A stretch of 64,000 nt of DNA from Paludibacteraceae bacterium (GTDB taxonomy: Bacteria; Bacteroidota; Bacteroidia; Bacteroidales; Paludibacteraceae), in the NCBI GenBank assembly GCA_024400115.1, contig JAKSNF010000010.1, positions 1 through 64,000 on the forward strand. Reading direction: 5' to 3'. This document shows, one piece after another, positions 2,392 to 51,073 of the stretch (positions are counted from its first letter, which is position 1; each line of letters starts with the position of its first letter). Both the position numbers and the translations under genes were made by a program. The notes below the pieces were generated by a model. The model worked only from the letters and a program-made list of their open reading frames with translations. It did not search any database and was not told the origin of the DNA.

Positions 2392-3588
2392 ATGAAAAAA
2401 CGGACACTGGTCATAGGGTATATTTTACTTGTTATCGTCGGTTATCTTCAAGGGCAATCAATACAAGAATTGATGCCTATGCCTCGGTCTATTTGTAGTG
2501 AAGCGTCCTTGCCTGCCGATTTGCAGAATAAATTAAATCGTATCCTTCAAGAGCGGTCAGAAAAACAGATGCGTTGGGGACAAGTGGTCACATGTAGGAG
2601 TGCTTTTTTACAAGATTGTTATTCGCGATACGTACACCATAACGACAGCTCTTTTTACTTAAATGACGCGCCCTATCAGTATAGTTACAAGTATGTATTT
2701 CCCAAGATGATTATCACCAATTCATCTTACGGTCATGAGGTAATACGCGGAAAGGGAGCCAAGTTCAATGCTAAGAAAGACCGATTGAGTTCTGTTTATT
2801 TAGACGATAGCAAGCACCTTTATGTAGTGAATAGAAAAAACGAGTTATGTGACCCCGCTTTGTTTAAGTTCACGGCAGAGGAAGGAGGAATACACATGGA
2901 GGGCAATCGCATTGTTTTGGATATGACTCCGCGGGATATAGCGAATGGTAAATATTCCTCGGAACAGCGAATAAACGTGACGCATTTGAATTCAAACACA
3001 ACCTATCGTTATGATCTGCAGTTCGTCTTTGAAGACAGTTTATCCTTACGGAGCAAAAAGAAAGCATTAGCCTTAATGGCCTACCCTACTGCGGATTATC
3101 CTAATTTAGGGGCAGTACTTAATCTAAGCGATAGGACGATGTTTTTTGTTCAACTCCCACTTACAATTCACGGAGAAGGGTCTAATGGGGCTAATGGTCG
3201 TAGAGGATATAACGGACAGAACGGAACACCTGATTATTGGTGGACAGACAAAGAAGGGAAGAAACATTACACGCCGGGCACTTGCGCCCAAGCAGGCGGC
3301 AACGGACAAGATGGAAGTGATGGTACAGACGGGGGGCAGTATTTGATTTTCTTAGACAACGACTTAGTTGATAGCCAGGGCGTGGAATGTGTTACGGCTT
3401 GGATTGATCCGGGCATAGGTGGAGAAGGTGGAAAAGGGGGCGAGGGCGGTATTCACGGACGCGGAAGCCAATGTAGGGGAATGGCTCCTAATGGTAAGAA
3501 CGGACGACATGGCAGAAACGGGCAAAGAGGCGATTTCCTCTATGTGACGGGAGATGTACAAACGTGGATAATGAAGGCACTGAAATGA
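2392..3588 (+). CDS. Exported protein with collagen-like Gly-X-Y segments
   Basis: First gene of a five-gene operon; function unknown. It has a signal peptide (MKKRTLVIGYILLVIVGYLQG) and a middle region without a recognised family. Two glycine-rich stretches (about residues 260-315 and 340-390) fall into Gly-X-Y triplets such as GANGRRGYNGQNG and GKNGRHGRNGQRG, the pattern of bacterial collagen-like proteins; many third positions are Asn or Asp, not Pro. Four Cys lie in the second half. The ATG at 2392 is preferred over a TTG at 2374 because it starts the signal peptide. The stop overlaps the next start (ATGA), indicating translational coupling. Confidence 0.8.
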   Translation: MKKRTLVIGYILLVIVGYLQGQSIQELMPMPRSICSEASLPADLQNKLNRILQERSEKQMRWGQVVTCRSAFLQDCYSRYVHHNDSSFYLNDAPYQYSYKYVFPKMIITNSSYGHEVIRGKGAKFNAKKDRLSSVYLDDSKHLYVVNRKNELCDPALFKFTAEEGGIHMEGNRIVLDMTPRDIANGKYSSEQRINVTHLNSNTTYRYDLQFVFEDSLSLRSKKKALALMAYPTADYPNLGAVLNLSDRTMFFVQLPLTIHGEGSNGANGRRGYNGQNGTPDYWWTDKEGKKHYTPGTCAQAGGNGQDGSDGTDGGQYLIFLDNDLVDSQGVECVTAWIDPGIGGEGGKGGEGGIHGRGSQCRGMAPNGKNGRHGRNGQRGDFLYVTGDVQTWIMKALK

Positions 3589-4829
3589 GAAGGGGATGGG
3601 TCTTTTGTATATTGATGTTAGTGTCTTTGTTGTTGAGCGCAAAAGAGACCACACGTCCGCGGCGTTATTACCGCAGCGCGTTAACCACGATGATGGTTTA
3701 TCACCCGACAGACGAGTTCGGTTATGAGGTATATCAGATTTATAAGGGATTACCCGTGCCCGATAAGTTCGATGAACACTCGATTGGCTATCAAGTAATT
3801 GATCAATCTTACATGACGGAAAGTGTCAGCGGAGAATCTCTTTTGAGGGTATTGGAAGACGGTCAAGTAGCAAAACGGATTGTAGCCAAGTGGTTTGACT
3901 GGAGCGGAGATAGTTTGGAGAATGCCGTTTTCAGTTCGAGGATATTAGAGGAGCGGTCGGACTACAATGTCAGTTTCATAGACGCCGAGAAGATTAAATA
4001 CACCATTGAGGGGCGTGCCTCGTTACGTGATGTAGGCGTACAACTGATGCAAAACTCATTCGTGTTGGTAAGTGATATAACTTATTCCACGGTTGAGGAC
4101 AAAGCAGAGAAAGCCAAGACGACACTAAATATATTAGGCGGAATAGCCGACATACTGACCGGAGGAAACGGAGGTAGGCGATTGGCTCAAGCCGCAGGGG
4201 ATATAGCCGACTCCTATACAGGTTTTAAGGTGATAACGCACACTTATCTTTATCAACTGGAGTGGAATAGAAACAAGATGAATGATTTCTTCGTTTACTA
4301 CTATACGGAAGAACCGAATAAGGATAAGATGCGTGCTTTTATAGAAGACACATCATCGTTCCATTTACGCTATTTAGGAACAGAAAGCAGCGTCTATGAA
4401 CAAACGGAGAAAAAAGGTAAATACAACCGAACCGAACTGCTGCAACTCATCACGGCACGCAGTATTGATAAGAACATAGCTACGCTTCAAACCAAGTATG
4501 AAGCTTTCCGAATCAAAGCACCTATCTCCTCCATTGAGTATAATAAAAGAGGAAAGGTTATTGGTTATAGGGCACTGATTGGAACGAAAGAAGATGTGAA
4601 GAACTCATCGGTATTTGAGATATTGGAGGTGTCCTTTGATGATGGAGAGTTGAAGTTCAATAAAGTGGGAAAAGCCAAAGTAGTTAATAATCGAATATGG
4701 GATAACCGCTATAACGCCCTAAAAGAAAACAACATAGATGTGAGTGTTGAAGGTACGCTATTAAAACCCAAAGGCAGACCTACGAAGACAGTTGTTCCCG
4801 GCATGTTGCTCAAACTGAAAAAACAATAA
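3585..4829 (+). CDS. Exported protein of unknown function, operon gene 2
   Basis: A 414-aa protein with an N-terminal signal peptide (MRRGWVFCILMLVSLLLSAKE) and otherwise soluble, so probably periplasmic. I do not recognise the family. It has a small hydrophobic, glycine-rich stretch near residues 185-210 (NILGGIADILTGGNGG) that could insert into a membrane or pack in a complex, and a basic C-terminus. The start at 3585 overlaps the previous stop as ATGA, and the stop is 2 nt before the next start. The conserved-looking spacing argues that it works with its neighbours. Confidence 0.75.
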   Translation: MRRGWVFCILMLVSLLLSAKETTRPRRYYRSALTTMMVYHPTDEFGYEVYQIYKGLPVPDKFDEHSIGYQVIDQSYMTESVSGESLLRVLEDGQVAKRIVAKWFDWSGDSLENAVFSSRILEERSDYNVSFIDAEKIKYTIEGRASLRDVGVQLMQNSFVLVSDITYSTVEDKAEKAKTTLNILGGIADILTGGNGGRRLAQAAGDIADSYTGFKVITHTYLYQLEWNRNKMNDFFVYYYTEEPNKDKMRAFIEDTSSFHLRYLGTESSVYEQTEKKGKYNRTELLQLITARSIDKNIATLQTKYEAFRIKAPISSIEYNKRGKVIGYRALIGTKEDVKNSSVFEILEVSFDDGELKFNKVGKAKVVNNRIWDNRYNALKENNIDVSVEGTLLKPKGRPTKTVVPGMLLKLKKQ

Positions 4830-4831
4830 TA

Positions 4832-6217
4832 ATGAAAAAGATTTTTTTACTATTCACACTTTTGATGGCGAACATTGTGATTGCTTCGCCTTGTAAGAAA
4901 GCAGATAAAGAGACTGCTCAGATGCGTTACGAATTGCAAGCCGCTGTAGGTCAAGCCTCAGAAGGCAGTGCGATGGTTCGCGTATGGACCTATTCCAAAA
5001 AAGCAAAGATTGCCAAAGAGCAAGCCGGTAAGAATGCTGTTCACGGGATATTGTTCAAGGGTTATCCCTCTTTAAATCACGGCAACACTCGCATTGTAGG
5101 TAGGGAAGCGCTGATTAGCGATGCTTCCATTTGGAACACGCAGGCTGCCTATTGGCAAGAGTTCTTCAAAGAGGGAGGTCCTTATCAACGCTATGTGAGT
5201 TATATAGCCAACGGCACTCCTGACTTCATAACCAAGGTGAACAAAGAGTACAAGATAGGTATTGTGGTTATTGTGCAAGTAGAAGCCCTCCGCAAGCGGT
5301 TACAAGAAGATGGTATTCTTCCCAAGGACGAGGTAAAAGGCAAAATGCCCATCATCATGGTAGTGCCGTCCTCCACATGGTGCAGTGCCCATGGATACAT
5401 GAAACAAGGTGCACCCGATTATGAGCAAGCCTTGCTGCATAGTCAAGAATTGAATCAAGCCATCACCACCTTATCCGTTCGCCTTAACCAACGAGGCTTT
5501 GAGATTAAAGACCTGAATAACGCTTTACGCACCATGCGCAATGAGGCAGCAGAAGAAGCGGTGACAGTCAGTCAGTTTGATGATAAGATAAATGAGACGC
5601 CTCTCGACCAACTGCGTCGCACAGCAAAGGCAGATATTTGGATAGAAATAGATTGGTATATCAACGAGTTAAAAGGCGGCAGTCAGCAGTCTTTGACGTG
5701 GTCAATGTCGGCTATAGACGCCTATACGGATATTGTGATTGGTGGTGTCAGCCCTACCACAACGGGAGCAACTTATGCCTCCTCGTTCCAATTACCCATT
5801 ATGGTGGAGAGTGCTATACAGGGTCAGTTCGACCCCTTCTGCAATACGCTTATTGATTATTTCCACAATATAGAGCAGAAAGGGCGTGCCGTTAAACTAA
5901 ATGTCCTCACATGGGAGATATTACGAGACGGCTTACAAACGGAGATAGACGACTTGGAGTTGAGCGACATCATCATCGAGTGGCTTGATAAGAACACAGT
6001 GAACGGCAAATACGGAACGCCGGAATTGAATCCATCAGGCACCCGAATGACCATTGAGCAAGTGCGTGTGCCCTTGGTGAACGCCAAAGGCAAGGACTTA
6101 TCCACCCTCAGTTGGATTAAAGGTTTACAAAAATGGCTCATGGACGAATATGACATGGAAAGTAATGTCAGCACCAAAGGACTGGGTCAAGTACAAATCA
6201 TTTTAGGAGGTAAATAA
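4832..6217 (+). CDS. DUF6175 family exported protein
   Basis: A 461-aa secreted protein with signal peptide MKKIFLLFTLLMANIVIAS. The stretch from about residue 170 to the end (PIIMVVPSSTWC, TAKADIWIEIDW, SAIDAYTDIVIGG, TKGLGQVQIILGG) matches what I know of DUF6175, a Bacteroidales-only family with no known biochemical function. The first 160 residues look like an LPP20-type repeat-helix segment (QASEGSAMVRVWTYSKKAKIAKEQAGKNAV) fused in front, which is longer than the usual family length of about 320 aa. Its TAATG overlap with the next gene shows coupling. Confidence 0.8.
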   Translation: MKKIFLLFTLLMANIVIASPCKKADKETAQMRYELQAAVGQASEGSAMVRVWTYSKKAKIAKEQAGKNAVHGILFKGYPSLNHGNTRIVGREALISDASIWNTQAAYWQEFFKEGGPYQRYVSYIANGTPDFITKVNKEYKIGIVVIVQVEALRKRLQEDGILPKDEVKGKMPIIMVVPSSTWCSAHGYMKQGAPDYEQALLHSQELNQAITTLSVRLNQRGFEIKDLNNALRTMRNEAAEEAVTVSQFDDKINETPLDQLRRTAKADIWIEIDWYINELKGGSQQSLTWSMSAIDAYTDIVIGGVSPTTTGATYASSFQLPIMVESAIQGQFDPFCNTLIDYFHNIEQKGRAVKLNVLTWEILRDGLQTEIDDLELSDIIIEWLDKNTVNGKYGTPELNPSGTRMTIEQVRVPLVNAKGKDLSTLSWIKGLQKWLMDEYDMESNVSTKGLGQVQIILGGK

Positions 6218-7152
6218 TGCGTCATCATTCTATATTTATTTGTTTGGCATTATTTTTGTTTGCTTGCTTTTGTACGGGATGTGCCACCGTTAAAGTGACG
6301 GAGTCGTCTGTTCGTCGTGCGCCCCAATGGGTGTTTGGAGCGGAACATAATTTCCTCATTGTGTCCGCAGAGGCAGAAGACATAGAGACAGCGAAGAGCA
6401 AAGCCCTCAATGAGGTTAAGAAACAGATGGTTAATGCCATTTCCGAGAATATCCGCACCACCTCTCATACGACAACGGAGGAATTAGGAGTGGATGATGC
6501 TTACGCCACAGTCGAGTTATATCGCGAAGAGTTGGCAACGGAGAGCGGCAATGTACCCTTCCTCAGTCAGGTTACGTTGGCAAATGTGGCCGATTACTAT
6601 TGGGAGAAACGCTTTGACAAGAAGACGAAAGCTGAGTGGTATGTTTACCATCTGAAGTACCCCTTCTCGCGTCTAAACCAAGAAGAGTTAATTGCTAAGT
6701 TCGAGGCGCAAGAGGCGGCTATTAACCGTCAGTTGAAGGAGTTAGAACAAGTCGATTTCAGCACTTTCTCGTCCGTGGAACAGATGGTAGCACAAGGAAC
6801 GACATTGAGAACGTTCCAATCTACGCTCATGGAGAACGACGGAAGACGAAAAACGTGTGACCGTATTCTGAGGGGATATAAGTCCAATGTGGAGCAATTG
6901 ACTATTCAGGCGGTGTGTGTGGATCGCGAAAAGACGCTGTATGAGGTATATTTAGGGGAGAAGAAGATGGCTTGCAATATCCGACCATATCTGCGTTCCA
7001 AATGTTTAGAGCAGATGAATTGGCAAGTGAAGGACGGTGTCAATGTGGTAACATACGACTATAGCGAATGTTTTGAAGACGAACAAAATTATATAGATAT
7101 CACGATAACGGTGATGGGAAAGAAAATCAACCATAGATATTTTATTCTATAA
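6217..7152 (+). CDS. LPP20-like lipoprotein, operon gene 4
   Basis: A 311-aa lipoprotein: hydrophobic N-terminus ending in a lipobox (CFCTGC, Cys about residue 22). Next comes the typical LPP20/FlgO-type layout in which the protein begins APQWVFGAEHNFLIVSAEAEDIETAKSKALNEVKKQMV, an alternating strand and Ala/Lys-rich helix. A coiled-coil-like stretch follows (about residues 165-230). It is probably anchored in the outer or inner membrane facing the periplasm. It starts at the ATG inside the previous stop (TAATG) and lies 37 bp upstream of the related smaller lipoprotein. Its function is unknown. Confidence 0.75.
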   Translation: MRHHSIFICLALFLFACFCTGCATVKVTESSVRRAPQWVFGAEHNFLIVSAEAEDIETAKSKALNEVKKQMVNAISENIRTTSHTTTEELGVDDAYATVELYREELATESGNVPFLSQVTLANVADYYWEKRFDKKTKAEWYVYHLKYPFSRLNQEELIAKFEAQEAAINRQLKELEQVDFSTFSSVEQMVAQGTTLRTFQSTLMENDGRRKTCDRILRGYKSNVEQLTIQAVCVDREKTLYEVYLGEKKMACNIRPYLRSKCLEQMNWQVKDGVNVVTYDYSECFEDEQNYIDITITVMGKKINHRYFIL

Positions 7153-10666: not shown

Positions 10667-10985
10667 TATAAACTCTCTCCCATCGCAACCTCTCGGGGTT
10701 GCGATGGTTGTGTATAGTTTACACTTTCCTAAAACGTTGACATCACTTTCGCGAGCAACCCATTTCTGTCCGTGAAAATTCAGAGCAAAATTGTAACTTG
10801 CTGATTCGCAATCAAATATCAATTTGAATATAGACTGCGAATTTGCGAATTCATGCGAAATTCGCACAAGTTCGCACAAATTCGCACCCTATTACAGTGT
10901 CTTTTGACTTCCAAAGTCCCAACATCGCCACAACATTGTCCCAACATTGCCACAACTTTTAAGGCCTATGCGAGCTTCCTCGCGT
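10667..10985. repeat. Composite dispersed repeat, copy A
   Basis: Three modules shared with 29907-30085. Module 1 (10667-10711) contains a perfect 10-bp hairpin CATCGCAACC/GGTTGCGATG. Module 2 (10751-10785) contains CATTTCTGTCCGTGAAAA. Module 3 (10913-10980) contains CACAACATTGTCCCAACAT and CACAACTTTTAAGGCCTATG. In this copy about 127 bp carrying a hexamer array sits between modules 2 and 3. Confidence 0.8.
10805..10886. repeat. Helically phased TGCGAA/TTCGCA array
   Basis: Seven exact hexamers: TTCGCA at 10805, 10861, 10871 and 10881; TGCGAA at 10836, 10844 and 10854. Several are spaced 10 bp apart, so they would lie on one face of the helix. This looks like a protein-binding array. Confidence 0.6.
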
Positions 10986-12470: not shown

Positions 12471-13994
12471 TTACCTACGATTGCGGGCACGAAGGGCGTA
12501 ATCGTAAGCCTCAAGATAGGCTTTGAAGAAATGCTTCCACTCCCCTTGCTGAGCAATGGCTGCTGCCTCCTCTCGAGCGGCAGCCCTTTCTTTTGGAGTA
12601 GCATTAAGGAAACGCTTAACCGTCTCCACCACTTGCTCAACCACCTCATCGTAATTGGAATCGTTGCGATCAATGACCGTAACACCTCTTAGATTTGTGG
12701 ATTGTGGATGGTGGATGGTGGATGGTTTAGCCGCCCAATCGCCAAAGCCGGACAAAGAGGTGGTTATCGTCGGCACATGGAAAGCCACCGACTCATGAGG
12801 CGTATAACCCCAAGGTTCATAGTAAGACGGGAAAATCGTGAGATCCAAACCGATAAGCAAGTCGTAATACGTTTTCTTGAAGACAGGGTCGTGTCCGTCC
12901 AGATAGTACGGAACAAAAAGAACCTTCACCCCATTCATCAACTCATTATTGATCAATCCATCATTATTGAGATAAGGAATCATTACAAACGCAATCACTT
13001 GCTTCCCTACTCCTCTACTCCCATACTCCTCTACTCCCAATCGCCTCATAGCATCTAAGAAGACATCAATTCCTTTATTCTTCCACTCTTGCCTTCCGGC
13101 AATACCTATCAGCAAGGGCTCTCCTTGAATCTCAACGTTCATCTCGCGCGCGTATTTTAATAAGGATTTGCGCGCCCGTGTACGCGCGAGGGCAAAAGCT
13201 CTACCTTGAGGAACAAAATCCGATTCAAAGCCGTTGGGAGTAACGACTGCCGGTTCCTTTTCCAGCAGTTGCTTACACTCGCGAGCGGTGATGTCGGACA
13301 CGGTAGTGAAACAGTCTGCCCAATGAGCAGCCATCTTCTCGACCGAATGCTTGGAAACCATATTGAGTTCGTCTGCCATTTGGTCACCATGGTAACCCTC
13401 AAAGTAATCGTATAGCGGTTTGCCGTTGCCGGCAATAGAACGCCCGATACCCGTAGCGTGGGTCGTAAAGAGTGTGCCTATCTTCGGGCAGTGTTTGCGC
13501 AAATAGAGGATAGCGAAAGCTGTTTGCCACTCGTTAGCGTGTGCAACAAACAACTTTCCACTCTCCTCTTTTGTTTTCCATTTATAGATAGACTCCATCA
13601 CCATTCCCGCAGCGAAGCCAAAGAGCGAAGAGGCATCATAATCGCCATAGGCAGCATGACTCTTGACGCCAAAGTGCTGCCACGCCCAACCGTAAATCTC
13701 GTTCTTCTGTAACCACAGGTTATCGTAATTAATGAGTACGGCAATCGGATTCCCCGGTACGTTCCACCGACCTACTCGGCAGGGTAAACAGCGGTTTTTC
13801 CATCCTTTCAGAACGGACGAGTCTTCGGTAAAGAACTTATCCGACTGCTCTTTGAGGTCGGGTCCAAAGAAGATAACGCGGTCGGGACAGAGTTGCTGCA
13901 TGGAGCGTGCCCTGGTGGAAAGGACGGCATAGATACCGCCTACTTTATTGCACACTTCCCAAGAAGTTTCAAAAATATAATCGGGTTGTAACAT
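12471..13994 (-). CDS. Glycogen synthase, GT3 (eukaryote-like) type
   Basis: A 507-aa glycosyltransferase. The N-terminus DYIFETSWEVCNKVGGIYAVLSTRA is the signature of the Bacteroidota GT3 glycogen synthases related to animal and yeast enzymes, which extend alpha-1,4-glucan from UDP- or ADP-glucose. The C-terminal lobe FPSYYEPWGYTPHESVAFHVPTITT carries the conserved Glu of the retaining GT-B fold. The ATG at 13994 is preferred; a GTG at 14012 lies in a repeat. Two or three in-frame low-complexity insertions, STIHHPQST (12697-12724), GVEEYGSRGVG (13009-13037) and possibly LNNDGLINNELMNG, look like acquired micro-repeats. Confidence 0.92.
   Translation of the reverse strand: MLQPDYIFETSWEVCNKVGGIYAVLSTRARSMQQLCPDRVIFFGPDLKEQSDKFFTEDSSVLKGWKNRCLPCRVGRWNVPGNPIAVLINYDNLWLQKNEIYGWAWQHFGVKSHAAYGDYDASSLFGFAAGMVMESIYKWKTKEESGKLFVAHANEWQTAFAILYLRKHCPKIGTLFTTHATGIGRSIAGNGKPLYDYFEGYHGDQMADELNMVSKHSVEKMAAHWADCFTTVSDITARECKQLLEKEPAVVTPNGFESDFVPQGRAFALARTRARKSLLKYAREMNVEIQGEPLLIGIAGRQEWKNKGIDVFLDAMRRLGVEEYGSRGVGKQVIAFVMIPYLNNDGLINNELMNGVKVLFVPYYLDGHDPVFKKTYYDLLIGLDLTIFPSYYEPWGYTPHESVAFHVPTITTSLSGFGDWAAKPSTIHHPQSTNLRGVTVIDRNDSNYDEVVEQVVETVKRFLNATPKERAAAREEAAAIAQQGEWKHFFKAYLEAYDYALRARNRR
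12697..12724. repeat. GTGGATN heptamer array inside glycogen synthase
   Basis: Four tandem heptamers (GTGGATT then three GTGGATG). On the coding minus strand three units encode seven residues (IHHPQST-like). Confidence 0.85.
13009..13037. repeat. ACTCC-type micro-repeat inside glycogen synthase
   Basis: Tandem CTACTCCTCTACTCCCATAC-type units, read in frame on the minus strand as GVEEYGSRGVG. Resembles the ACTCTAA spacers before other genes. Confidence 0.6.
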
Positions 13995-13996
13995 AC

Positions 13997-14053
13997 GTGG
14001 ATGGTACGCCACTTGCGTGGCTATTGTGGATGGTGGATGGTGGATGGTGGATG
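13997..14053. repeat. GTGGATN heptamer array before the glycogen synthase start
   Basis: GTGGATG, a 22-nt linker holding the hairpin GCCAC-TTGC-GTGGC, then four GTGGATG units. The array fills nearly the entire gap between the PKD lipoprotein stop and the glycogen synthase ATG. The same linker occurs inside miaA. Confidence 0.9.
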
Positions 14054-14054
14054 G

Positions 14055-15122
14055 TTAGCGTAAACGTTTCGTGGTGTCAACGGCGAGGCGGATGATATCC
14101 GATTGTTCGTTGAGGAGTTTAATCTTGGTATTATCAAACTGATTTTGCGGATGATCCACTAAAGGCATATAATAAACACCCGTTGCCGTAGCCCAATAGA
14201 GGCGATTGATACCCGTATAAGTGTCCGTAAAAATAGCCGAAATGGGACGAGGGTCAATGATATTGACATTATTGCCCATCATGTCCGATATATACAAGCC
14301 ATCGGTGGTGCGATAATAAATCTTGCCATTAGCAATGCGGAAACCCGTCATCTCGGGTAAGATGGTTTTGAGTTCACTAAGGCGGAAAGTATATCCATTT
14401 GCCGTTTGAAGGGTATCTTGTGTGGTAGCAAGGATGTTTTGTCCCTCTGCATACGTAAACGGCAATATCTCTTCCGCGCGAGCAGGATTAACAAACACGC
14501 GTTGGCGCGACATAGTCCCTGCTTCGTTCATCATGAGCACGGCGGTAGCCGGTTTGTCCTCCACGGTATAGGTGCGTTGCTCCGTAGTGGTAATACCATT
14601 GAAGGTGATGTTCATCGTGATATTCACTTGTCCGGGTTGGGTGAAATAAACGTTCCACTTTCCGTTATTGCCTTGGGAATTTTCTTTTACTAACTCCGCG
14701 ATAGACGGTTCAGCCGTCCAGACGCAAACAAGGCTATCCATATTAGGATTGAAGAGTTGAGCCGAGAAAACCACGTCTTCGAACACATGAATAGGTAGCG
14801 AATCGTGGTCCAAAACGAAGGTCGGAATAGAATCCACAATGGTAATCATGTGGGTGCAGGTTCGGCTCTCTTTATTATCTACCATTAAAAGGACTTGGTA
14901 GGTTCCCGGCGCATCATACGTGTGGGTAGGGCTTTTGGAAGTGGAGACTTTTCGGTCACCAAAACGCCATAACCACTCCTCTCCCATGGAAGAAGAATTA
15001 ACAAAAGTAACTTTCTCACCTGCTTTCGGTTGAGCGGGAGAATAAGTAAAATCAATCGTTTCTTTCTTGCAGCTGATGCACGTAATCACTAATAGCGTCA
15101 GCAGAATGTGTTGTATCTTCAT
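14055..15122 (-). CDS. PKD-domain lipoprotein
   Basis: A 355-aa lipoprotein (MKIQHILLTLLVITCISC, Cys about residue 18), so surface- or periplasm-facing. Residues about 25-95 form a PKD Ig-like domain (SPAQPKAGEKVTFVNSS, EEWLWRFGD, SPTHTYDAPGTYQVLL). A second Ig-like part and a C-terminal beta-repeat region (about 200-355) follow, with phrases such as GFRIANGKIYYRTTDGLYISD that suggest a small propeller. The ligand is unknown. The first 71 bp overlap the miaA 3' end in another frame, so the signal peptide is dual coding. It is probably co-transcribed with miaA and glycogen synthase. Confidence 0.85.
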   Translation of the reverse strand: MKIQHILLTLLVITCISCKKETIDFTYSPAQPKAGEKVTFVNSSSMGEEWLWRFGDRKVSTSKSPTHTYDAPGTYQVLLMVDNKESRTCTHMITIVDSIPTFVLDHDSLPIHVFEDVVFSAQLFNPNMDSLVCVWTAEPSIAELVKENSQGNNGKWNVYFTQPGQVNITMNITFNGITTTEQRTYTVEDKPATAVLMMNEAGTMSRQRVFVNPARAEEILPFTYAEGQNILATTQDTLQTANGYTFRLSELKTILPEMTGFRIANGKIYYRTTDGLYISDMMGNNVNIIDPRPISAIFTDTYTGINRLYWATATGVYYMPLVDHPQNQFDNTKIKLLNEQSDIIRLAVDTTKRLR

Positions 15123-16047
15123 TTTCAAACCAATGTATTTCTGTATCTCTTCTCCACCACGTCATCTGCCGTTTAGCATAATGGCGGGTGTTTTGTTTTA
15201 TTTGTTCAATTATTTTTTCTCTCAACTCTAAACTCTCCACTCTCGACTCTTGATCATCCCACTCTCTATACCCAACCGTCTGCAATCCGTTCGGTCGATT
15301 GGGGTATTGGGCAAAGGCGGCACGCACTTCCTGCTCCAATCCGGCGGCAATCATCTCATCCACGCGCTTATTGATACGCTCGTATAGTTCGGCGCGAGGG
15401 CGGGTCAGTCCCACTTTGACGATACGCCATGGGCGTTCCTTCACCGTCTTCTTGCGGAGCGACGAATAGGGTTGACCTATCGTTTGCGATACCTCCACGC
15501 AGTGCATCAGCCGCTGAGGATTAGATTGATCCACTATCTGCCAATAATCGGGGTCGAGCCGTTGCACCTCTTGCTGCAACCATGTTAGTCCCTGCATTCG
15601 ATAGTTATCCTGTACCGTTTTGCGTATATCCTCGGGTACGGAGGGAATCTCGTCCAAACCGTTGCACACGGCATCGATATACATCATGCTTCCCCCCGTC
15701 AGAATCGCCAAGACTTTTGTGGATTGTGGATGGTGGATAGTGGATTGTGGATGGTGCGCCACTTGCGTGGCTATTGTGGATAGTAGTTCCACCGCATCCC
15801 TTTCGAACTGTCCGGCATTATAGCCCTCATCGAGGTTGTGGGTGCCAACGAAATAGTGTTGGACACGTTGGAGTTGTTCCTTGGTAGGCGCAGCCGTGCC
15901 AATAGGTATCTCGTGGTATATCTGGCGCGAGTCGGCATTGAGGATAGGGCAATGAAAGCGTTCAGCGAGTGTCACCGCCACCTCGCTTTTGCCCACACCG
16001 GTAGGACCAACCAGTACCAGCAATATAGGTTTAGAACATTGTTCCAT
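15052..16047 (-). CDS. miaA: tRNA dimethylallyltransferase
   Basis: Transfers dimethylallyl to A37 of tRNAs reading UNN codons. P-loop LVGPTGVGKSEVA is at residues 11-23, followed by the substrate motif NADSRQIY and later LTGGSMMYIDAVCNGLDEIP; the end TWWRRDTEIHWF is typical. The start is the ATG at 16047, overlapping the upstream stop by 17 nt; longer in-frame starts would run into the upstream gene. Two segments look inserted: AHHPQSTIHHPQST (DNA 15719-15782) and ESRVESLELREK (DNA 15217-15253), both matching dispersed micro-repeats. Both lie outside the motifs, so the enzyme is probably active. Confidence 0.93.
   Translation of the reverse strand: MEQCSKPILLVLVGPTGVGKSEVAVTLAERFHCPILNADSRQIYHEIPIGTAAPTKEQLQRVQHYFVGTHNLDEGYNAGQFERDAVELLSTIATQVAHHPQSTIHHPQSTKVLAILTGGSMMYIDAVCNGLDEIPSVPEDIRKTVQDNYRMQGLTWLQQEVQRLDPDYWQIVDQSNPQRLMHCVEVSQTIGQPYSSLRKKTVKERPWRIVKVGLTRPRAELYERINKRVDEMIAAGLEQEVRAAFAQYPNRPNGLQTVGYREWDDQESRVESLELREKIIEQIKQNTRHYAKRQMTWWRRDTEIHWFENEDTTHSADAISDYVHQLQERND
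15217..15253. repeat. ACTCTAAACTCTCC micro-repeat inside miaA
   Basis: Contains the 19-mer CTCTAAACTCTCCACTCTC (15226-15244), present exactly (reverse complement) in the spacer before the hexosamine kinase gene at 61684-61702. Confidence 0.8.
15719..15782. repeat. GTGGATN heptamer array inside miaA
   Basis: Five GTGGATN units, the same 22-nt linker seen at 14004-14025 (one base different) and one more unit, all within the miaA frame. Confidence 0.9.
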
Positions 16048-19018: not shown

Positions 19019-19777
19019 TTAATTCAAATTATTTTCAATGATAGATTTGAGTTCGGAGAGAGGAATAGTACGGATAGTATTGGATTGCGCGATAGATATT
19101 TTACCCGTTTCCTCAGAAACCACAATACACGTTACATCCGATACCTCACTCAATCCCAAAGCAGCACGATGACGAAGACCATAGTGCTGAGGAATATCCA
19201 TATTCTTAGAGACGGGTAAGATACAACCTGCACTCTGAATTTTTCCTTTGGCAATAAACAATGCACCATCATGTAAAGGGCTGTTCTTGAAGAATAGATT
19301 TTCTATAAGACGGGTAGAAATCTTACCATCGACCATTTCGCCCGTATCAGTAAAAGCACTGAGCTCTTGTTTATTGCGCAGTACTATGAGTGCTCCCACT
19401 TTACTTTCTGACATATGCAAACAAGCATCATATATCTGCTTGACTTGCATCTCGCGCTCTTCCGCGCGCGATACTTTATTATTTAGTTTAAAGGCACTGA
19501 ACCGAGCTCCGACATGATAGAAGAAAGAGCGTATCTCTTCTTGGAAAATAACAATAAGGGCAATCGCACCTACCGAAATGATACGATCAAACAACGCTCC
19601 GGTAAGTTCAAGTTGAAAAACAAAACAAACGAGTACCCAGATGATGAGAAAGGCAAAGATTCCCCAGAAGAGGTTAGCAGCACCCGAGCGACGCAACAAA
19701 ACGAATCCGTAGTAGAACATCACTGCTACGAGCAGGATATCTATTACATCTTTAATTCCAAAATGAAGTCCTATCAT
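19019..19777 (-). CDS. cdaA: Diadenylate cyclase, CdaA type
   Basis: Makes the second messenger c-di-AMP from two ATP. A membrane-bound N-terminus with about three spans (residues 7-80) is followed by the DisA_N catalytic domain, with the motifs DGALFI and [13 protein letters not shown] that bind ATP and metal. The 252-aa length is usual for Bacteroidales CdaA. The ATG overlaps the folP stop (ATGA), the standard folP-cdaA arrangement in this phylum. c-di-AMP generally controls turgor and cell-wall balance; no target riboswitch was seen here. Confidence 0.95.
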
Positions 19778-29002: not shown

Positions 29003-29872
29003 ATGAAAAAAGTTATTTTTTTCTTTGCTGTTGCGATTGGCAGTGTGCTAATGATGGCGCAAACGAACCAAATCACATGGGTGAATGGTCGCGCCGTGTT
29101 AGGTCAGTCGATTAGTTCGATTGATAGTATTAAGTATGGAGTAATCGAGGACGCCGACCAACTCGTTCTCTGGTTACCTAAAACGATTATTGTTCACGAT
29201 ACGGTTATTGTGCATGATACCATCATCATCAATAAGTGCGATAGTAGCTATGCTCCCGAAGGTGTAGAGATGGTCGATTTAAGTTTGCCCAGTGGTATTA
29301 AGTGGGCAAATATGAATGTAGGTGCCACTGCTATTACTGAGTATGGTGATTACTTTGCATGGGGAGAAACAACTCCCAAAACCACCTATGATTGGAGTAC
29401 GTACAAGTATTGTTCCGATGGCAAATATACAGGCATGACCAAGTACACCTATCCAGATGGTCTAAAAAGTGGTATTTGGTATAATGATGATACTTTCATT
29501 GGCGATAACAAGACGACTCTTGACCCGGAAGACGATGCTGCTCACGTTAATTGGGGTGGCAATTGGCGTATGCCGACCTTGGCAGAAATCCAAGAATTGG
29601 AAAACAACTGTACATGGAAATGGGTAGCTCTGCAAGGTGTTAATGGTTATAAAGTGACAGGTAGCAACGGCAATTGGATCTTTTTGCCCGCTTCCGGCTA
29701 CCGCTACGATTCGTCGCTCAGCCGTGTCGGCTTCCTCGGCTACTACTGGTCCTCTTCGCTCGACGAGGACTACTCGGCCTACGCGTACGACCTCGGTTTC
29801 AATTCGGTCGACGTGGATTGGAGCAGCAGCGATCGGTACTTCGGTCATTCCGTGCGTCCGGTCTGCCGGTAG
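29003..29872 (+). CDS. FISUMP/DUF1566-type C-lectin-like protein, probable DGR target
   Basis: A 289-aa secreted protein (signal peptide MKKVIFFFAVAIGSVLMMA). Residues about 90-289 form the Fibrobacter-succinogenes-major-paralogous/DUF1566 domain: MVDLSLPSGIKWANMNVG, DYFAWGETTPK, NWGGNWRMPTLAEIQEL, LPASGYRYDSS, GYYWSSS, GHSVRPVC. This C-type-lectin-like fold is a usual scaffold for diversity-generating retroelements. The last 180 bases have only 23 A (13%), against 52 A in bases 29401-29580 (29%). Codons at surface positions are TAC, GAC, GAT, CTC, GTC and TTC, where a template would carry AAC or AAT. No reverse transcriptase is in the window. Confidence 0.85.
   Translation: MKKVIFFFAVAIGSVLMMAQTNQITWVNGRAVLGQSISSIDSIKYGVIEDADQLVLWLPKTIIVHDTVIVHDTIIINKCDSSYAPEGVEMVDLSLPSGIKWANMNVGATAITEYGDYFAWGETTPKTTYDWSTYKYCSDGKYTGMTKYTYPDGLKSGIWYNDDTFIGDNKTTLDPEDDAAHVNWGGNWRMPTLAEIQELENNCTWKWVALQGVNGYKVTGSNGNWIFLPASGYRYDSSLSRVGFLGYYWSSSLDEDYSAYAYDLGFNSVDVDWSSSDRYFGHSVRPVCR
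29688..29866 (+). other. Candidate variable region (VR) of a DGR target
   Basis: A-poor, GC-rich end of the gene encoding GYRYDSS...SVRPVC. The composition break is abrupt at about 29688. The invariant landmarks (YWSSS, AYAY, FNS, SVRPV) are kept and the positions between them are occupied by residues reachable by A-to-N changes of AAC/AAT codons. Confidence 0.65.
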
Positions 29873-29906
29873 CCAGCACTCATTCTGACTTGCAAATTTT
29901 TGCATT

Positions 29907-30085
29907 TATAAACTCTCTCCCATCGCAGCCTCTCGAGGTTGCGATGGTTGTTTGTAAATACCCTTGGGGGAATTGGCGAACAACCTATTTCTGTCCGTGA
30001 AAAGTCAGAGGGCTGCCAAAGTCACAACATTGTCCCAACATAGTCACAACATTGTCCCAACTTTTAAGACCTATGCAAGAAGGCC
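29907..30085. repeat. Composite dispersed repeat, copy B, 3' of the FISUMP gene
   Basis: Module 1 at 29907-29951 (45 nt, two differences from copy A) holds hairpin CATCGCAGCC/GGTTGCGATG at 29921-29946, 48 nt after the stop. Module 2 is at about 29977-30010 and module 3 at 30017-30085. Module 3 contains an internal tandem of GTCACAACATTGTCCCAAC. The region has no gene. Confidence 0.8.
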
Positions 30086-48554: not shown

Positions 48555-50621
48555 TTAAACCATTTCCAGGACCACCGCGGAGCGAGCCGGCAGATACAAC
48601 TTCAGCCACCCCTTATGCTCTTTCTTATACAGTTTATCGGGTTGCGTGAAATGTTCTATACTATCGTCACTCAATCCAAATCCGGCGAACTCTTTCGCAT
48701 CTGTATTAAGCACCACTTTATACTTGCCTTCGGGCACGAGCATACCATAATCCGAAAACGACTTCTGTCCGTTCCAGTTAAAGACGAAAATCAGATTGCC
48801 TCTACGATAAGCCACCACTTGGTCGCCTTCGTTGTCCCACACATTATATACCCATGGCAGGTGCAACCCGTTCTTGTCTTTCTCTATTGTCAGTTTCTCC
48901 TGCAATAACTGTACCATTTGAGCATCAAAGCGGTCAAGGTCAGCGAAATAATAGTTCTCATTATCCACCAAACTCCACTGACGACGGGCGTACTTATGAC
49001 TCCAACCATTACCTTGACGCGGGAAGTCTATCCATTCGGGATGACCAAACTCATTGCCCATAAACGTGAGGTAACCGCCATTGATGGTCGATGCCGTAAT
49101 AAGACGTATCATCTTATGCAACGCTATTCCCCTATCTACCATATAGGTCGAATGTCCATGCTCAAAGTGCCAGTACATATCGGCATCAATGAGGCGGAAG
49201 ATAATCGTCTTATCGCCTACTAACGCTTGGTCATGACTCTCGGCATAGGATATTGTCTTTTCGTCTTGACGACGATTGGTCATCTCGTACAATATATGTC
49301 CACCCTTCCAGTCCTCGTCCTTCTGCTCCTTGATGTACTTAATCCAGAAATCGGGTATGCCCATCGCCAAACGATAGTCAAAGCCCATACCACCGTCCTT
49401 GATAGGGCAAGCTAATCCCGGCATGCCGGACATATCTTCGGCTATCGTGATAGCGTTCTTCTTAACCTCGTGTATCAGTTTATTGGCAAGGGTGAGATAG
49501 CAGATAGCGTCACCATCGGCATTAGGCGTGTAGTAACTATCATATCCGTTGAAGTCCTCCCCTAAACCATGACTGAGATACATCATCGAGGTCACGCCGT
49601 CAAAGCGAAAACCGTCAAATCCGTACTCGTCCAACCAGAACTTGCAGTTAGACAGCAAGAAGTGCATCACTTCGGGTTTACCATAATCGAAGCATAGACT
49701 ATCCCAAGCAGGGTGCTCGCGACGCCAACCGGCGTGGAAATACTGATACGGCGTACCATCAAAATTACCCAATCCCTCGCGCTCGTTCTTAACAGCGTGC
49801 GAGTGCACTATATCCATGATAACGGCAATATTACGACTATGCGCGTCGTCAATGAGTTCTTTCAGTTCTTCGGGCGTACCAAAACGAGACGAAGCAGCAA
49901 AGAAATTGCTTACGTGATATCCGAAACTGCCATAGTACGGGTGCTCTTGAACTGCCATGATCTGAATACAGTTATATCCTAATTTCTCCACACGCGGCAG
50001 CACTTCACGACGGAATTGGTCATACGAGTTCACTTTCTCCTCCTCACTCGACATACCTATATGGCACTCATAAATAAACAACGCCTTATCTTTCCCCGCC
50101 TGCCAACGTATCTGTGGTCTTTTTAATCTCTTAACTTTTGAACTATCCGACTTCTCTAAATTCTTAATTCTTAATTCTAAATTAACATCCCAAACTTGCG
50201 CCGAAAAGATCTTCGTACTCTCATCTTGCACCACGCGCGTGGCATAACTCGGGATACGTTCTCCCCAACCGCCTTGCCATTCAACGAGCAGTTTATAGAG
50301 CTGCTCATGGCGCAAAGCGTCCTCCGGCCACTCTTTCTCCCAAACGCCATTGCCTATCGGTTGCAGACGATAGTACTCGTCTTTGTTCCAACCGTTCATA
50401 TCGCCTTTGACATAGATAGCCGTGGCATTAGGAGCCCACTCGCGCAGCACCCAACCGGTAGCCGTGCGGTGAAGACCGAAATACATATATCCGTTTGCCC
50501 AATCCTTGAGAGGAGTGCCTCCGGTTAGTTCCTGCTCCTTGCGGAGCGCATAATCGTATCGCCCTTGAATAGCCGAGGCAAAAGGCTGCAAATACGGATC
50601 GTTCGCTACAATCTTTAGCAT
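48555..50621 (-). CDS. glgB: 1,4-alpha-glucan branching enzyme
   Basis: A 688-aa GH13_8 enzyme that makes alpha-1,6 branches in glycogen. CBM48 is at the N-terminus (ATGWVLREWAPNATAIYVKGDMNGW), with barrel motifs DIVHSHAVKN, DGFRFDGVTSMMY (nucleophile Asp), ITIAEDMSGMPG (acid Glu) and YAESHDQA, and a beta C-domain. A low-complexity stretch LELRIKNLEKSDSSKVKRLKR (about 21 residues near position 155, DNA about 50119-50185) has the look of an in-frame micro-repeat. It overlaps YhcH by 7 nt. Confidence 0.95.
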   Translation of the reverse strand: MLKIVANDPYLQPFASAIQGRYDYALRKEQELTGGTPLKDWANGYMYFGLHRTATGWVLREWAPNATAIYVKGDMNGWNKDEYYRLQPIGNGVWEKEWPEDALRHEQLYKLLVEWQGGWGERIPSYATRVVQDESTKIFSAQVWDVNLELRIKNLEKSDSSKVKRLKRPQIRWQAGKDKALFIYECHIGMSSEEEKVNSYDQFRREVLPRVEKLGYNCIQIMAVQEHPYYGSFGYHVSNFFAASSRFGTPEELKELIDDAHSRNIAVIMDIVHSHAVKNEREGLGNFDGTPYQYFHAGWRREHPAWDSLCFDYGKPEVMHFLLSNCKFWLDEYGFDGFRFDGVTSMMYLSHGLGEDFNGYDSYYTPNADGDAICYLTLANKLIHEVKKNAITIAEDMSGMPGLACPIKDGGMGFDYRLAMGIPDFWIKYIKEQKDEDWKGGHILYEMTNRRQDEKTISYAESHDQALVGDKTIIFRLIDADMYWHFEHGHSTYMVDRGIALHKMIRLITASTINGGYLTFMGNEFGHPEWIDFPRQGNGWSHKYARRQWSLVDNENYYFADLDRFDAQMVQLLQEKLTIEKDKNGLHLPWVYNVWDNEGDQVVAYRRGNLIFVFNWNGQKSFSDYGMLVPEGKYKVVLNTDAKEFAGFGLSDDSIEHFTQPDKLYKKEHKGWLKLYLPARSAVVLEMV
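50119..50185. repeat. TTAATTC-type micro-repeat inside glgB
   Basis: Contains TTCTTAATTCTTAATTCTAA (50161-50180). In frame on the minus strand, at the variable CBM48-barrel linker. Confidence 0.65.
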
Positions 50622-51073
50622 ATAACTCGGGTTTTAACAATCAACTTACGATAACCGGCATTAGGGTCTGCTATTCCCGGTTGGTGAGCATCTTCGGGGA
50701 AGAAAACGATAAACTCGCTGGGCTGTACGTTTGCCATCGTGGTCGCTTTCTCGCGATAGAGCGCCATATCAATAGAAGCATCGTACGGCTTATCCACATG
50801 GTGACACGCCTCTTTAGCTTTCCATCCCATGGATTCTGCACCCGTAATAGGTATCTGAATGTCAATAAACTCATTATGGGTTTCAAACAAACAATCTTCC
50901 TCTAATTTACCGTTTACGTCCAGTACTTTAACGAGTAATTTCCCTTTTTCTAAAACCTCTGTTCCTGCAGGAAGGGATGTAACGTCCGTGACGGCAAGCC
51001 AGTTCATCACTTGGTCAAAACGAGGCACCACCTCAAAATAACGACTTGCGTTTTCTAATTTGTCGAGTATCAT
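50615..51073 (-). CDS. YhcH/YjgK/YiaL (TabA-like) family protein
   Basis: A 152-aa cupin-fold protein. GKLLVKVLDVNGKLEEDCLFETHNEFIDIQIPITGAESMGW and FIVFFPEDAHQPGI contain the His/Glu metal-site residues of the family. Members are linked to sialic-acid (N-glycolylneuraminate) handling in Haemophilus and biofilm control (TabA) in E. coli; here the first position in a glycogen/amino-sugar operon suggests a sugar role. The promoter lies at 51134-51165. Confidence 0.88.
   Translation of the reverse strand: MILDKLENASRYFEVVPRFDQVMNWLAVTDVTSLPAGTEVLEKGKLLVKVLDVNGKLEEDCLFETHNEFIDIQIPITGAESMGWKAKEACHHVDKPYDASIDMALYREKATTMANVQPSEFIVFFPEDAHQPGIADPNAGYRKLIVKTRVIC

Follow-up and report, generated by a model that had tools for sequence, protein, structure and literature searches.

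A 3' cassette of a Paludibacteraceae FISUMP/Lcl_C-like gene as a probable orphan target of a diversity-generating retroelement

The window analyzed here, a stretch of 64 kb from the genome of a Paludibacteraceae bacterium, carries a gene whose cassette at 29678–29842 is, on sequence comparison, very probably the variable repeat (VR) of a target of a multi-target diversity-generating retroelement (DGR). The cassettes of this genome are regarded as orphan targets because no reverse transcriptase (RT), accessory gene or template repeat (TR) was found in its assembly. The features of the gene and its 3' flank are listed in Table 1.

Table 1. Coordinates of the target gene, its variable repeat and the downstream hairpin in the window.
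Feature	Position	Strand	Description
Target gene	29003..29872	+	289 aa; N terminus signal-peptide-like by inspection (MKKVIFFFAVAIGSVLMMAQ), linker, C-terminal FISUMP/Lcl_C-like domain, end SVRPVCR
Domain part upstream of VR, non-variable	29273..29677	+	VDLSLPSGIKWA...SNGNW; paralogue differences mostly at the third codon position, as in an ordinary gene
Variable repeat (VR)	29678..29842	+	165 nt; starts at ATCTTTTTGCC; backbone codons shared with the paralogues, silent sites included; NNC/NNT codons hypervariable
Hypervariable codons 1–11 (inferred AAC/AAT in template)	29699, 29705, 29708, 29720, 29723, 29735, 29762, 29768, 29771, 29777, 29780 (first bases)	+	
Hypervariable codons 12–22 (inferred AAC/AAT in template)	29789, 29795, 29801, 29807, 29810, 29816, 29822, 29825, 29828, 29831, 29840 (first bases)	+	
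Conserved tail GHSVRPVCR	29843..29869	+	Residues mostly kept, silent positions drift again; 3' end of the homogenised tract
Near-perfect hairpin CCATCGCAGCCTCTCGAGGTTGCGATGG	29920..29947	+	About 48 bases 3' of the stop; also after the contig 27 paralogue and an unrelated gene at 10680

Reading of the open frame at 29003–29872 confirmed the protein end SVRPVC and the loop codons TAC, GAC, GAT, CTC, GTC and TTC reported in an earlier sequence-only reading of this DNA. The domain matched Pfam Lcl_C, formerly DUF1566, with E=2.3e-4 and FISUMP (TIGR02145) with E=0.0035, both under the curated cut-off. Lcl_C was matched by 11 of 11 family members, the best at 3e-8. These sub-cut-off matches support the family name given earlier weakly; the C-type-lectin-like fold that went with it was not confirmed, since the AlphaFold model built on a two-sequence alignment had a mean pLDDT of 31, too low for use, and PDB sequence searches gave no match.

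The composition of the gene end was also largely as described. Positions 29401–29580 contain 52 A, as claimed, and the last 180 bases (29693–29872) contain 24 and not 23; 23 A are present in the 179 bases of 29688–29866 and in the 165 bases of the cassette. Mean A content was 27.0% (SD 4.5) over 5,372 coding-strand windows of 165 bases from 43 ORFs of the 64-kb window. The 13.3–13.9% of the cassette was the minimum, tied with the ORFs starting at 19019 and 51224, so A-depletion alone is not unique to it. Its GC3 of 0.836 was the highest of all these 165-base windows and compares with 0.43 elsewhere in the gene. The abrupt switch to A-poor, GC3-rich sequence is thus real, but it had been placed at 29688, and the paralogue codon alignment puts the sharp change at ATC TTT TTG CCC, codon 226 (29678).

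The hairpin behind the gene was considered as a DGR element and rejected because the same repeat follows the unrelated gene at 10680; it is more likely a dispersed terminator or repeat. At 10667–10790 and 29907–30064 the dispersed repeat consists of the hairpin CCATCGCARCCTCTCGRGGTTGCGATGG, then TTCTGTCCGTGAAAA and tandem 11-mers (GTCCCAACATN). Short tandem repeats of the GTGGATGGTGGATG type (repeat families D6 and D11) occur at or near ORF boundaries at 12695–12727, 14010–14056 and 15717–15784.

A blastn search of 29640–29880 against the genome (2.14 Mb, 60 contigs, 98.95% complete) retrieved seven further copies of the cassette with 71–82% identity on contigs 27, 8, 36 (three copies), 45 and 19. 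The genome therefore has eight copies, seven of them distinct because two on contig 36 are identical. All eight are coding, in frame and inside homologous FISUMP/Lcl_C-like domains. Some cassettes belong to short secreted proteins or to lipoprotein-like proteins, and others to an LRR-type protein on contig 8 and a giant repeat protein on contig 36, within which they lie internally. On contig 36 (L016, G000:C36:1-7112, - strand), one open frame extends over most of the contig and contains three FISUMP-like domains, each with a variable cassette, spaced by glycine-rich 'NITINGG' repeats. On contig 8 (L015 and L003, G000:C8, near 50469–50653), the cassette lies within a long leucine-rich-repeat-like surface protein that continues for several hundred residues after it. 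Mid-protein VRs, and three of them per protein on contig 36, look unusual for DGR targets.

The copies differ from each other in a manner that changes at the cassette boundary. Paralogue differences at codon positions 1/2/3 numbered 360/365/127 inside the cassette, 594/560/1120 just upstream (29273..29677) and 12/14/73 in the seven codons 3' of the tract, up to V287 (147 codon pairs). Where amino acids differed, the third base was kept in 432 of 528 cases (82%) in the cassette and in 266 of 847 (31%) upstream; where residues were shared, silent differences were seen in 31 of 621 (5%) and 548 of 1541 (36%), respectively. Each of the 22 hypervariable codons encodes four or more amino acids across the copies, and 147 of 154 such codons end in C or T, with G in only 3. 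The backbone codons, for example GGC TAC TAC TGG TCC TCT TCG CTC, are the same in every copy. A backbone that is constant even at silent sites and is interrupted by varying AAY-derived codons is what characterizes a DGR target. The pattern points to repeated copying from one template with randomisation of its AAY codons; it is not what would be expected of ordinary evolution, of codon bias or of gene conversion.

The base spectrum agrees with that of DGR reverse transcriptases from the same genus. At positions 1 and 2 of the hypervariable codons, the cassettes of this genome carry 90 G, 76 T and 16 C (49, 42 and 9%), and 13 complete DGRs of the genus show 132 A>G, 105 A>T and 29 A>C (50/39/11). 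At these 13 loci, TR/VR mismatches affect 266 of 625 template A and 25 of 1443 other bases. A template was deduced from the VRs of the genome by writing AAC/AAT at the hypervariable codons. The deduced template retrieved real TRs beside GLPIGNLTSQ-type RTs in genomes G025, G050, G056, G058, G069 and G038 and in G307, which belongs to another genus. The target genes of these loci, where read, belong to the same protein family as the window gene. The G307 TR reads YRNNSDLNNAGSNGNYWSSSLNTNNSDNAYNLNFNSDNVNWNNNNRYYG and thus resembles the template that was deduced for the window VR. The TRs of G025 and G307 are independent of the VRs of this genome, as they were not built from them. Mismatch of these VRs to the G025 TR was 0.60 at A and 0.27–0.33 at other bases, and to the G307 TR 0.58 at A and 0.19–0.37 at other bases, whereas the control upstream of the cassette had no A excess (0.31 at A and 0.23–0.45 elsewhere); the Fisher P-values obtained for these comparisons count paralogues as independent, so that they are to be read descriptively. 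The mismatch at non-A bases would fit divergence of the TRs themselves. Silent difference from the cassettes of G111, G066 and G058 was 38–39%. The actual parent template was not seen because the backbone of the own type has diverged from every TR found.

Complete loci in G025 (L082) and G307 (L128) are arranged in the order target, accessory ORF, TR and RT, with a target of the same family also in G307. Their targets are of the same family as the window gene (VDLGLPSG...SVRPV/SVRGV) and their TRs are similar to the deduced template of its VR, but silent backbone positions differ, and their templates are therefore sisters and not the parent. The ORFs between target and TR (L082 8467–9021 and L128 1236–1823) are homologous, about 185 aa long (MQLKDIL..FRAYEWSAWL) and without a Pfam or NCBIfam match; they are candidates for a DGR accessory factor in this bacterial family. 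Behind the complete DGR of G307 (L128, G307:C8) lie, at 3486–6846, the genes of a DUF4384 protein and of a protein with a caspase domain (Peptidase_C14), an arrangement that recalls the DGR-linked conflict systems of PMC10907252.

A GLPIGNLTSQ-type RT and a non-coding A-rich template, which together define a complete DGR, were both missing from the assembly of the genome studied here. A profile search gave no RVT_1 match, no match to the RT or accessory protein of G025 was obtained, and the deduced template found no A-rich template and no ninth copy beyond the eight coding ones. The sensitivity of the RVT_1 search can be judged from the 24 of 101 same-genus genomes in which it found RTs; RTs of the DGR type, with GLPIGNLTSQ or a similar motif, occur commonly in this genus. 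The absence of RT and template noted earlier for the window was borne out and extends to the whole 98.95%-complete assembly. The sequence-only reading had also held that the lack of a near-copy with A at the mismatching positions speaks against a DGR target. Taken literally, this is the case, as the eight near-copies are all coding and do not include an A-rich template; the outcome shows that the core is absent from the assembly and does not show that the cassette is not a VR. Cassettes of the same or a similar type are present in other genomes, and eight of these genomes had no RVT_1 match over the cut-off, namely G017, G051, G071, G131 and G134 of the genus and G291, G292 and G300 of two other genera; G066, which has a cassette and no RT match, was left out of the count at 62% completeness. 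Four of the nine RT-less genomes (that of the window, G017, G051 and G134) are 98–100% complete, which means that gaps arising at random in assembly do not account for all nine. The RT of G081 was rejected as the missing core, since its TR/VR (L069) belong to another template family and do not match the cassette. A phage or viral source was rejected as well, because pattern scans and a protein search of viral contigs and blastn of phage records found no matching template or source.

The cassettes differ in how closely they follow the common backbone. The window cassette (C2) and those designated C27, C8 and C36_6146 have 0–2 of 25 backbone codons and 0–1 of 22 third positions of hypervariable codons off consensus, and C45 and C19 deviate more. 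The genes of C2, C27, C8 and C36_6146 differ at 53–64 third positions upstream, and resetting of these cassettes would thus be much younger than the genes. Of the 22 hypervariable dinucleotides, 10 are common to C27 and C8 (P=0.016 for the maximum pair), and sharing in other pairs is near the shuffled expectation. G017 and G051 have one VR with 99.4% identity in a flanking gene with 90–93% identity, which argues that this VR is not being rewritten. The contig 19 cassette (L008, G000:C19) is 90% identical to G081:C76 (L091) of a different species of the same genus behind a diverged upstream gene, and so cassettes also appear to move by ordinary recombination. The hypervariable codons and an inserted TAC codon of this pair are nearly alike and similarity jumps at ATCTTTTTGCCCG; the comparison suggests transfer of the cassette alone. 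Together with the excess sharing of C27 and C8 and the identical pair on contig 36, this case shows that DGR action was not the only process in the history of some cassettes. Not all VRs appear to be currently rewritten, some being near-unchanged between species.

These data are consistent with the following course of events. A DGR reverse transcriptase would have made cDNA from a template RNA rich in AAC/AAT, with errors at its adenines, and this cDNA would have been substituted for the 3' part in at least seven FISUMP/Lcl_C-like domains, which lie at six places of the genome. About 22 codons, probably located in surface loops, would thereby have been randomised, and the silent positions of the backbone would have been returned to the template state in every copy. 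The lineage would most likely have lost the core (RT, TR and accessory gene) after recent activity, a loss that we favor with moderate confidence over a failure to assemble. The cassettes would have stayed behind as fixed orphan VRs, and ordinary recombination may also have spread a few of them.

The proposal that the gene is a DGR target served in trans thus holds for its origin, for which the evidence is the variation at codon positions 1 and 2, the inferred AAY template, the A>G,T>>C spectrum and the TRs of relatives; present service in trans is unproven. A DGR still active in trans, with VRs being rewritten by a core on a mobile element or in an unassembled stretch, is considered unlikely. 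RTs are missing from too many well-assembled cassette genomes for random gaps, the viral contigs and phage records searched gave no matching template, and the VR shared by G051 and G017 is not rewritten. Such activity has nevertheless been documented in another system (PMC10907252), and the assembly is in 60 contigs. The almost identical backbones of C2, C27, C8 and C36_6146 also suggest that the last resetting was recent, as expected under continuing activity. Systematic exclusion of a mobile-element core from bins is possible; the cores of G025 and G307 sit among ordinary-looking genes (caspase, DUF4384, AAA ATPase and nuclease), which argues weakly against it.

Variation made without an RT, through gene conversion or cassette shuffling among paralogues together with diversifying selection on loops, is very improbable. 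Cassettes are indeed common to different genes and species (C19 and G081:C76, and the identical pair on contig 36), and C27 and C8 share more than expected. Conversion would, however, homogenise the variable sites too, and by itself it produces no NNY restriction, no constant third bases and no A>G,T>>C spectrum; outside C27/C8 the sharing is close to that under shuffling. Pure gene conversion is therefore rejected as the source of variation and retained as a secondary process. The contrast in GC3 between the cassette (0.84) and the remaining gene (0.43) would also be expected of a recently acquired high-GC3 foreign 3' segment under ordinary protein evolution with a bias for C-ending codons. 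This explanation is rejected as extremely improbable, since it is contradicted by the codon-position counts and since the paralogues diverge at silent sites again in the seven codons that follow the tract. In addition, the backbone keeps TCG, GCG and GAG while the variable codons end in C or T and almost never in G, so there is no blanket GC3 bias.

A DGR origin of the cassettes would carry some general implications. DGR targets can be recognized without an RT or a template by comparing paralogues, the signature being variation at codon positions 1 and 2, a frozen third position and the almost exclusive use of NNY codons. Seven or more hypermutated domains can be present in a genome in which no RT is detected, and if the core is really absent, such a genome shows the fate of a hypervariable repertoire after the loss of its mutator. 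Tentatively, and with less confidence than in the loss of the core here, DGR cores may turn over much faster than their targets in this bacterial family, and many genomes may retain sets of DGR-made cassettes with no core. Such cassettes would then become fixed and serve as ready-made binding modules that pass between genes and between species, among them mid-protein VRs and the several VRs of one giant protein.

Reports also exist on related systems. DUF1566 and Fib_succ_major domains are known DGR targets in Bacteroidales and other human-microbiome DGRs (PMC4159848). The window gene has the same target domain family, a VR in the C-terminal domain and probably A-specific substitutions; those DGRs, however, have an adjoining RT and TR, and the window gene has neither. 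In Thiohalocapsa PB-PSB1, DGR loci are diversified in trans (PMC10907252). Targets lie away from the RT in both cases, but the in-trans targets of Thiohalocapsa match a TR of the same genome at all non-A sites. Surveys anchored on the RT state that remote targets are missed (PMC8144416). Isolates of Treponema denticola without RT and TR have been reported to carry orphan targets, six of them in strain al-2, which were read as leftovers of a lost core (PMC4891356). The present genome is similar in having several dispersed targets with an apparently A-templated VR pattern and no RT or TR. For Treponema denticola, however, other isolates of the species contain the parental TR (PMC4891356), whereas here the exact parent was not found. 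Overall, orphan DGR targets are already known, and what is added here is the scale of the orphan state and its recurrence, which, unlike in Treponema denticola, involves Bacteroidales FISUMP/Lcl_C-like targets in at least nine genomes of three genera.
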